DNA of 64,000 nucleotides, from the IMG/VR virus record IMGVR_UViG_3300028608_000012, positions 1-64,000 of that record. One strand, given 5' to 3'. This document shows, one piece after another, positions 11,127 to 13,973 of the stretch. How positions within the stretch are numbered: the first letter of the stretch is position 1; the number at the start of each line of letters is the position of its first letter. This stretch comes from a virus. The position numbers and the translations under genes are program-made. The notes beneath the pieces are model-generated. The model was not told the DNA's origin and searched no databases. It was given only the letters and a program-made list of their open reading frames with translations.

Positions 11127-13973
11127 TTAGTTAAAAAGGGTTAAGGCACTGTTGGTCATCTTGAGGGGACGTCCAAGCAATTCTTCACTGATGTCCAGGG
11201 TCTCTTCACCGGTTACGTTAGCAAAGGCCACGTGACCTTCCATACGTCCCATCAGAGCATCCACCTGTTCTTTACTCCAGGCCAGGATGTCCAGACTACG
11301 GGTGGTGATGTTGAGCTTATCCCCGGTGTCCATATCCAGCATACGGAAGAAGCACTGCGCAGCGTCCTGTCCGGTACGCCAGATCCTTCCTTTCACTTGT
11401 CGCAACTCATGTTCCCGGAATGGGGAGTCCAGCCCGATGATCTGGTTAGCCATCAACAGAGGATAGCCTTCCTTCAGACTGTTATACACAGCCACCAGGG
11501 GGTTGACACGAGCGTCTTCACCAAACTTCTTGATCGTAGGTTCACGGTCGCTGCTGTTCTCGCCATACACCGATACAGGCTTGTAGCCCTGAGCAGACAG
11601 ATAGTCCACCGAGAGTTTCAAGGCTTCAACGTAAGAGGTGAAGATAACCGTCTTCTTCTCTACGTCGTCGATGTACTTAGGCAATTCGGCGTGAGCGATG
11701 AGGTCTTTGATGGCATTGATGCGGGCGCGACCCAAAACGTTACCCAGGGCCTCACCACGGATCTTCAGAGCCAGGTACTTAACAGCCGATTTCACGTTAC
11801 GGAACTCAGCCAGCTCAGGACCACGGATACCCCGTTCGATATCCTCCTCTACAGTCTTACAGAAGGCGCTGTCAGCCGCATCCGTAAAGTTGTTGTACCC
11901 TTGAGTGCGGAACCGATTAACGATTGCCTTGTAGCGTTGTAGGTCAGCCAGCTCTTTCGGGTGCTTCATGACCGTGTACTCATAGCGTTGAACTGTCTCG
12001 TTATAGAACACGATGAATTCAGCCATGTGTGCGTTATAGAAACGAACCCGCTCTATAATGTAGGTCTGCATCTCCAAACGAATGGCGTCCAAGGTGTACT
12101 TCTCCCCGTTAGGGATTTTAACCTTGATGATTTCAAACGGAGGAGGATCACCCATACCGGCTAGTTCAGGGATAGAGAACTTACCTCGACCAATACGGTT
12201 CGCCAACAACGAGATAAGCGCAGGACGGTTACGACCATAGCTCGCCATGAAGAAGTCCCTGGCGTGCCTGTCGAAGTGTTTGTCGATAAGGCAGGTGATG
12301 GGGTAGATCTCACTGCCAAGCGCCTTCAGCGGCGTCCCAGACATCGGTAGCGCATCTTCGAACAACCCATCGTCCGCCAGCTCCACCAAACGGCGAGTTT
12401 GCTTAGATTTGATATCGTTGAAGTTGTGCGACTCGTCGAGGATCAGACTGAACTTCTTCTTGTTGCGCTTCATGGCTTCATTAAACCATTTACGCAAGTG
12501 GTCGTAGTGATTGCCCTGGAGGAACTCGTAGTGCACGATGTAGTAGTCGTAGTCATCCGTCAACAAACGACCCGACGTAGACGTCCACACCCGAGGCATC
12601 TCTTTGAAGCGGGTCTTCATGTTACCGATCCACACTTCTTCCACGATGTTCAGTGGGCAGATGATGATGCACTTGTTGTCACTCACCAAGACCGACCACA
12701 TCAGCGAGGTGAAGGTGTTGTGCGTCACCACCCAGTCATCAACAATATACAGACAGTCTTCACTGTCAATACTGATGCAGGCAGTTTCAGCAACCGGTTG
12801 CTGTTGGATAGCCACCAACTTGAGCTGGAGGTTCTCGTATTGATGCAGATCAACGATCTCACCCAGCGGTACGCCCACTAGACTGTCTACCAGACCGACC
12901 ATATCACGGTGCTTGAAGTTCACCTTGAACAAAGTACCGAGGGGTTCCTGAGAAGCTATCCCACCAAGGCTCCACATGAGCTTCTGGAAGTTGCTGGCAC
13001 CATAGACGTTGTCCATGACCACCGACACACCCGCCTCGCTCAGATGGCACCCTGAACGCTCGATCATAAGCCTGGCAATCTCGTAACGATCCCCGTAGGA
13101 AAGTTCTGTCACTGGATCAGCCATATGTATACCAGCAGTCAGCAGTCCGGTGGCTATCTGGATTAAATCGAGTTCAGAAGGCGGAGTGTCTTCATTAACG
13201 TTTCCAACCAGAGGGATGTGATAACTGAACTGGTCGAAGTGATTAATGATGTCGCGGGTAGTGGTGACATAACGCTGACCTACGATATCACCTTGTTCGT
13301 CAACACCTGACTCAGCGACTTCCCACAGATGCAGGGGATGGGATTCAGCAGTGCGCCCGTCTTCAAAGGTAAAGCGGAAGTTCTCGGTAACACCCTGAGG
13401 GAAGTAACCGGTAACATTTGCGGTATTCCCCCTGGGTCCTATCACCTGGTCACCTATCTTAAGGTCACCAAGGCGCTTCCAGCCTCCCGGTACTTTAACC
13501 TGCGTGTGCAGGGGCATGGCCTTACCGCTACCTACCGCTGCGTCTAGCAGCAATCCTTTAAGGTGGTAGCTAGAACGAATGATTGGGTATTGCTCCAAGA
13601 ACTCACGTTGTTTAGGGAACGGGGGAGTGTTAAAGCGTTCCAGTTTCTTGAAGTCAAACTGTTTGCCGATGGGGTTGACAGTATCTTTAATCCAGGTTTC
13701 CGTTTCAAGCAGGTGCTTGAGTTCGGCTAGCTCTCTACGACGACTACGGAGGTTACGAACTTTCAGCAACTCTCCCAACACCAGATGCAGTTCTACCAAG
13801 AAGAAGTTATGAACCTTAATGGTGTCCCAGGTTTCCCTGCGGATCTGCCACTTGGTGATCAGGGAGCTGCTGTAGAACTTCTCAATGTCTCGTGCCAGTG
13901 CGCCGTATGAAACTCCTGTGATGTGTACAAAGACCCCAGTTTGCTTTACAGCAACTGAAAATAAGTTAAACAT
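11127..13973 (-). CDS. SNF2/SF2-type helicase interrupted by an intein
   Basis: A 948-residue precursor. The host protein is split within the Walker A motif: ...DAAVGSGK at residues 144-151, then the intein (152-419), then T420 FTSLM. Splicing would restore GSGKT and give a 680-residue helicase. Motif II is LDESH (512-516). Motif VI is QVKGRIWRTGQ (859-869), of the SNF2/RapA-like type that translocates on double-stranded DNA. The precursor cannot bind ATP normally before splicing, so activity should depend on it. SD GGAGG precedes the ATG. The neighbours are a probable internal head protein and an unknown gene. A role in replication, transcription or recombination cannot be chosen from sequence. 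Confidence 0.9.
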   Translation of the reverse strand: MFNLFSVAVKQTGVFVHITGVSYGALARDIEKFYSSSLITKWQIRRETWDTIKVHNFFLVELHLVLGELLKVRNLRSRRRELAELKHLLETETWIKDTVNPIGKQFDFKKLERFNTPPFPKQREFLEQYPIIRSSYHLKGLLLDAAVGSGKAMPLHTQVKVPGGWKRLGDLKIGDQVIGPRGNTANVTGYFPQGVTENFRFTFEDGRTAESHPLHLWEVAESGVDEQGDIVGQRYVTTTRDIINHFDQFSYHIPLVGNVNEDTPPSELDLIQIATGLLTAGIHMADPVTELSYGDRYEIARLMIERSGCHLSEAGVSVVMDNVYGASNFQKLMWSLGGIASQEPLGTLFKVNFKHRDMVGLVDSLVGVPLGEIVDLHQYENLQLKLVAIQQQPVAETACISIDSEDCLYIVDDWVVTHNTFTSLMWSVLVSDNKCIIICPLNIVEEVWIGNMKTRFKEMPRVWTSTSGRLLTDDYDYYIVHYEFLQGNHYDHLRKWFNEAMKRNKKKFSLILDESHNFNDIKSKQTRRLVELADDGLFEDALPMSGTPLKALGSEIYPITCLIDKHFDRHARDFFMASYGRNRPALISLLANRIGRGKFSIPELAGMGDPPPFEIIKVKIPNGEKYTLDAIRLEMQTYIIERVRFYNAHMAEFIVFYNETVQRYEYTVMKHPKELADLQRYKAIVNRFRTQGYNNFTDAADSAFCKTVEEDIERGIRGPELAEFRNVKSAVKYLALKIRGEALGNVLGRARINAIKDLIAHAELPKYIDDVEKKTVIFTSYVEALKLSVDYLSAQGYKPVSVYGENSSDREPTIKKFGEDARVNPLVAVYNSLKEGYPLLMANQIIGLDSPFREHELRQVKGRIWRTGQDAAQCFFRMLDMDTGDKLNITTRSLDILAWSKEQVDALMGRMEGHVAFANVTGEETLDISEELLGRPLKMTNSALTLFN
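12717..13520 (-). other. Class 3 intein in helicase P-loop
   Basis: 268 residues between GSGK and T. It starts with Ala (AMPLHTQVKVPGGWKRLGD), not Cys or Ser. Block B is SHPLHLW, with His215 and Trp217; block F has Cys399 in TACISIDSEDCLYI; block G is VVTHN with Asn419, and the next residue is Thr420. This Trp-Cys-Thr set with a non-nucleophilic first residue is the signature of class 3 inteins such as those in mycobacterial DnaB. The centre keeps traces of a LAGLIDADG endonuclease (LDLIQIATGLLTAGI and WSLGGIAS) but lacks clear acidic catalytic motifs, so homing activity is probably lost. Confidence 0.88.

Follow-up and report, generated by a model that had tools for sequence, protein, structure and literature searches.

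A single open reading frame on the minus strand (positions 11127 to 13973) encodes a 948-residue SNF2-family helicase without internal stop in the viral DNA stretch analyzed here (IMG/VR record IMGVR_UViG_3300028608_000012, positions 1 to 64,000; hereafter, the 64,000-nucleotide window). The helicase was identified from the reading frame, a match to phrog_62, the Pfam Helicase_C domain, and tblastn searches. It is interrupted by an in-frame insert of 268 residues (positions 12717 to 13520, minus strand; residues 152 to 419 of the protein), located exactly between Lys and Thr of the Walker A motif GSGK/T. The flanks of the insert read LLDAAVGSGK / AMPLHTQVKV ... CLYIVDDWVVTHN / TFTSLMWS, in which slashes mark the junctions. 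Homology, signature residues, a phylogenetic tree, and a predicted structural model identify the insert, which extends from Ala1 to Asn268, as a class 3 intein. The original prediction had placed an intein at these coordinates and between these two residues of GSGKT; its boundaries were exact, and Ala152, Trp217, Cys399, Asn419, and Thr420 were all found at the positions that it gave.

The N-extein (positions 13521 to 13973, minus strand; residues 1 to 151) ends with AAVGSGK, the first part of Walker A, and was delimited by alignment with RisingSun gp211, which is uninterrupted: LLLDAKAGSGKTFLSLIWS. The C-extein (positions 11127 to 12716, minus strand; 529 residues) starts with Thr420, which is both the +1 residue and the Thr of Walker A, and contains motif II and the Helicase_C domain. 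Following removal of the insert, the extein displays the hallmarks of the SNF2 family (SF2), namely Walker A GSGKT, a DExH-type motif II (LILDESHNF), and Helicase_C (E 1.9e-7 in the Pfam scan), and it matches the DNA helicases of phrog_62 in PHROGs (E 1.3e-103), as expected for the SNF2-like phage helicase that had been proposed. The Pfam SNF2-rel_dom model scored 19.1 bits on the extein, below its cut-off of 24.9. By sequence comparison, the helicase is the ortholog of Pseudomonas phage EL gp166 (YP_418199) and belongs to the group of phiKZ gp203 and RAY gp131. The order of the neighboring genes is the same in the window, in phage EL, and in relative L004. The joined extein matched 198 phage records by tblastn, including the gene of RAY, which carries a virion-associated annotation; the RAY relative of the helicase is virion-associated (PMC10299810). 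In RefSeq, many intein-bearing helicases are named 'DarB-like antirestriction' and several intein-free orthologues are named DNA helicase; the DarB-like name may have spread via the shared intein rather than via the helicase.

The two splicing halves of the HINT domain occupy the ends of the intein. The N-terminal half (residues ~1–89; positions 13254 to 13520, minus strand) was delimited from the alignment and the strands of the model, and the C-terminal half (residues ~233–268; positions 12717 to 12824, minus strand) from the alignment and the signature residues. The first residue is Ala152 (Ala1), in keeping with class 3 splicing, for which Cys, Ser, or Thr is not needed at this position. 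Block B contains the class 3 HxW motif, comprising His64 (B:10, residue 215 of the helicase), Leu65, and Trp66 (B:12, residue 217). In block F, Cys248 (F:4, residue 399), the putative nucleophile, is aligned with the Cys of the class 3 intein of structure 6bs8. The intein ends with VTHN, comprising Thr266 (G:5, residue 417), His267, and Asn268, and is followed by Thr420 at +1 (HN/T). The Trp and the Cys of the WCT triplet had been correctly assigned in the original prediction. The Thr had not, since the T of the triplet is defined at block G:5 (PMC5222942, PMC7891396, PMC5050341) and corresponds to Thr417 of THN. Thr420 is a separate nucleophile, which is also required. As both residues are present, the class 3 assignment is unchanged. 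His64, Leu65, Trp66, Cys248, Thr266, His267, and Asn268 were invariant in an alignment of 14 phage inteins originating from SNF2 helicases, from a second helicase, whose gene in several phages lies close to those for RNA polymerase, and from one terminase.

The whole insert matched 195 phage records by tblastn. It was 43% identical to phage EL gp166 (E 3e-64), with 43–45% identity over the full length of the intein, and 78–88% identical to metagenomic relatives from viral contigs; agreement of this extent lies well outside chance. The intein of EL gp166 occupies the same K/T site in the same helicase and the same gene neighborhood, and has likewise lost its endonuclease motifs; in contrast to the window intein, it comprises 262 residues and has Lys at the block F His position. 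TIGR01445 and the Pfam Hint models did not detect the window intein, which was recovered by PHROGs and homologue searches. Thus, it would have gone unnoticed had only domains been scanned.

Among solved structures, the best sequence matches were gp41-1 and the class 3 DnaB inteins of M. smegmatis and M. chimaera. The presence of Ala1 would by itself fit a class 1 intein that has lost Cys1 and splices in a class 2-like manner, directly through Thr+1; gp41-1, the top match in the PDB, is class 1 in origin. However, the best-scoring gp41-1 chain was 6riz, a WCT-engineered variant carrying the substitutions C1A, F65W, and D107C. Position F:4, which is Asp in class 1, is Cys in the window intein, and both Trp B:12 and Thr G:5 are present. 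Phylogenetic comparison with known class 3 inteins also separated the two classes: in a tree built from the splicing blocks, a split with 94% support set class 1 and gp41-1 apart from class 3. The window intein fell inside class 3, grouped with the inteins of EL-like phages (92–100%). The alignment underlying this tree comprised ~104 columns of the splicing domain, and several nodes inside class 3 are poorly supported. Loss of Cys1 from a class 1 intein, an outcome raised by the original prediction itself, is disfavored by the Cys at F:4, the Trp at B:12, and the tree, and we regard it as extremely improbable.

The predicted structure is compatible with this class. The AlphaFold2 model, based on an alignment of 44 sequences, had a pLDDT of 93.2 and a pTM of 0.90 and displays a HINT fold. 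Foldseek matched it to PI-SceI (2e-9), to class 3 MsmDnaB1 (6bs8; 1.8e-7, TM-score of 0.82 on the target), and to M. chimaera DnaB1 (6rix). Both DnaB inteins share with the window intein the WCT triplet, the THN end, and the HINT fold (TM-score of 0.8 on the target), and MsmDnaBi1 is likewise inserted in a P loop (PMC6195587). Unlike the window intein, they are mini-inteins of 139–145 residues without endonuclease relic, are followed by Ser at +1, and reside in DnaB. Together, sequence and model make it very likely that the insert is a cis-splicing class 3 intein occupying the P loop of an SNF2-family helicase from a jumbo phage.

To place this intein among its kind, 157 distinct class 3 inteins were delimited from viral and bacterial collections and from named phages. 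This set was chosen by intein profile and not by extein and contains many DnaB hosts; conservation of residues is therefore partly built in, but site preference is not. The insertion site was GK/T or GK/S of a P loop in 151 of the 157 inteins; the K/T site has been termed the 'classic' P-loop insertion (PMC5050341). HxW was present in all 157, Cys F:4 in 156, and Thr G:5 in 155. The claim that class 3 inteins are rare did not survive comparison with the literature, where the tally for nr stood at 1701 by 2020, 82.5% of them with LAGLIDADG motifs (PMC7891396). Nor is a SNF2 host unusual. Class 3 inteins reside at the same helicase site in phages EL, VP4B, SL2, PhiPA3, and PS119XW and, at GK/T, in SNF2-type P loops (LADDMGLGK/ and like) of Gemmobacter, Hymenobacter, Longimicrobium, and Planctomycetia loci, the bacterial host type being judged from the P-loop motif only. 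To judge from a title cited in PMC5222942, the Snf2 intein of Deinococcus radiodurans (Brace et al., 2010) is a founding class 3 example and one of those on which the mechanism was shown; it resembles the window intein as a class 3 intein in a SNF2-family helicase, but its host is a bacterium rather than a phage. The window intein is real and well conserved, adds a further example to a common kind, and leaves the known class 3 mechanism unchanged. In Nostoc linckia (L194), the same GK/T site of a SNF2 helicase harbors a class 1 intein with Cys1 and Asp at F:4, indicating that both classes reached this site. The PS119XW intein (L017:3001-4035) combines a full WCT triplet with Ser1, and thereby offers a natural case for asking whether the class 1 first step still competes.

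The helicase site is filled in some phages and empty in others. The same insertion is present in EL gp166 and in metagenomic relatives, including every close relative of the window recovered in the searches, and more distant class 3 inteins occupy the site in VP4B, SL2, PhiPA3, and PS119XW. In RisingSun gp211 (51% identical) and in L183 to L186, GSGKT or its equivalent is uninterrupted, and intein-free helicases align to the rejoined extein of the window without a break at GSGKT. From the 198 phage records matching the extein, a spread sample of 60 was drawn. The joined extein was matched in one piece across Walker A in 49 of these and in two pieces with an insert in seven; one more was a short fragment. 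The three remaining matches (SL2, phiHQ, and PS119XW) were partial, and SL2 and PS119XW were found to carry inteins when read. By this sequence survey, most phiKZ-like phages have an empty helicase site, and the insertion is polymorphic across the helicase family.

Between the splicing halves, the intein contains a relic of one LAGLIDADG half-domain that has lost its catalytic acids (residues ~141–216; positions 12873 to 13100, minus strand), as deduced from the alignment, Pfam, and the model. The relic is ordered in the AlphaFold2 model, as helix-strand-strand-helix-strand-strand-helix, which we take to be the layout of one LAGLIDADG half. The region of the first LAGLIDADG motif is lost, the second motif reads MIERSG versus LMDTDG in PhiPA3, and the window intein contains no D-x-D-G motif; it thus lacks the two motifs with catalytic acids expected of a homing LAGLIDADG enzyme. 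Pfam LAGLIDADG_3 matched the inteins of PhiPA3, PS119XW, BUCT660, and SL2 (2.5e-11 to 9e-7), and no Pfam LAGLIDADG match was obtained in the window or EL intein. The PhiPA3 and PS119XW inteins resemble the window intein in their site in the orthologous helicase and in their triplet, but comprise 345 residues with an intact LAGLIDADG domain, and PS119XW begins with Ser1. With a half-domain devoid of catalytic acids, the window intein should splice but not home; as judged from sequence and model, it is very probably active in the former and inactive in the latter. At one orthologous P-loop site, jumbo-phage class 3 inteins form a clear decay series: full homing inteins in PhiPA3 and PS119XW, an intein in partial decay in SL2, folded relics in the window and EL, the smaller VP4B intein (227 residues), and empty sites in RisingSun and most phiKZ-like phages. 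The EL genome contains four class 3 inteins and most metagenomic relatives contain three; EL-like phages, with two to four per genome, are a good natural system for inteins that persist after loss of homing.

Comparison of the window with five close relatives gave dN/dS ratios of 0.09–0.13 for the splicing part, 0.11–0.18 for the relic, and 0.06–0.09 for the C-extein. Over all pairs, the ratio was 0.05–0.18 for the relic, which rules out free drift of this region and indicates that it is constrained. The constraint probably serves folding of the intein; the relic may also have a regulatory role. Selection bears as well on whether the intein is dead, leaving a helicase precursor that is inactive or non-essential, as might be supposed from the missing endonuclease motifs and from the replacement of the block F His by Cys. 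All other splicing residues are intact, however, dN/dS is ~0.1 in intein and extein alike, and conservation of the extein extends to 198 phage records. A dead intein in the Walker A loop would be expected to result in loss of the intein or decay of the gene, and we consider this explanation very unlikely. Synonymous divergence was higher in the intein (0.69–1.30) than in the adjacent C-extein (0.51–0.76) in every pair involving the window (L004, L005, L006, L019, and L020), perhaps due to recombination in the extein or to a different synonymous constraint.

From the anatomy, homology, predicted fold, selection, and empty sites described above, we propose a route, chemistry, and timing for splicing. 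The helicase precursor would be translated whole. Cys248 (F:4), aided by His64 and Thr266, would attack the Lys-Ala bond to form a branched thioester at block F, and the N-extein would be transferred to Thr+1. Cyclization of Asn268 would release the intein, and an ester-to-amide shift would restore GSGKT and with it the binding of ATP. The element would once have spread by means of its LAGLIDADG endonuclease, of which only one folded half-domain lacking the catalytic acids appears to be left. The intein would accordingly now be inherited vertically, and the need of the helicase for clean excision would keep it in place. Should the helicase be packaged in the virion, like its RAY relative, splicing would have to be completed before packaging, a reasonable inference by analogy.

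The one slightly unusual trait of the intein is that its block F His position is occupied by Cys256 (residue 407 of the helicase); absence of this His could slow the last step, Asn cyclization. The His is present in only 83 of the 157 class 3 inteins (EL has Lys and L006 has His), and Cys was found at this position in four, the window intein and its closest relatives only. In class 3 MsmDnaBi1, a Cys48-Cys118 disulfide involving the F:4 Cys controls the intein and blocks splicing under oxidation (PMC6195587). With this precedent, and with Cys256 located eight residues from Cys248, a reversible disulfide between the two might hold the precursor until a redox change, which would refine cis-splicing by the class 3 route rather than exclude it. 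However, Cys256 is not conserved in the clade (L006 has His at this position, and EL, L022, and L181 have Lys), which makes such a disulfide switch unlikely. It is similarly doubtful that the intein, having lost homing, is a resident post-translational switch, in which the folded half-endonuclease domain, maintained by selection, and the lineage-specific Cys256 would make helicase maturation conditional, for example on redox or on timing before packaging.

Just beyond the window, the gene for the terminase large subunit (L007:4768-8058, plus strand; record positions 64768 to 68058) harbors a second class 3 intein of 315 residues, which starts with Tyr, ends with LTHN/T, and is inserted at QQGK/T of Walker A. 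The same record encodes a PhuZ-type phage tubulin (L007:14396-15397, plus strand; phrog_4733, E 6e-73), a sequence match consistent with a phage related to the nucleus-forming jumbo phages.
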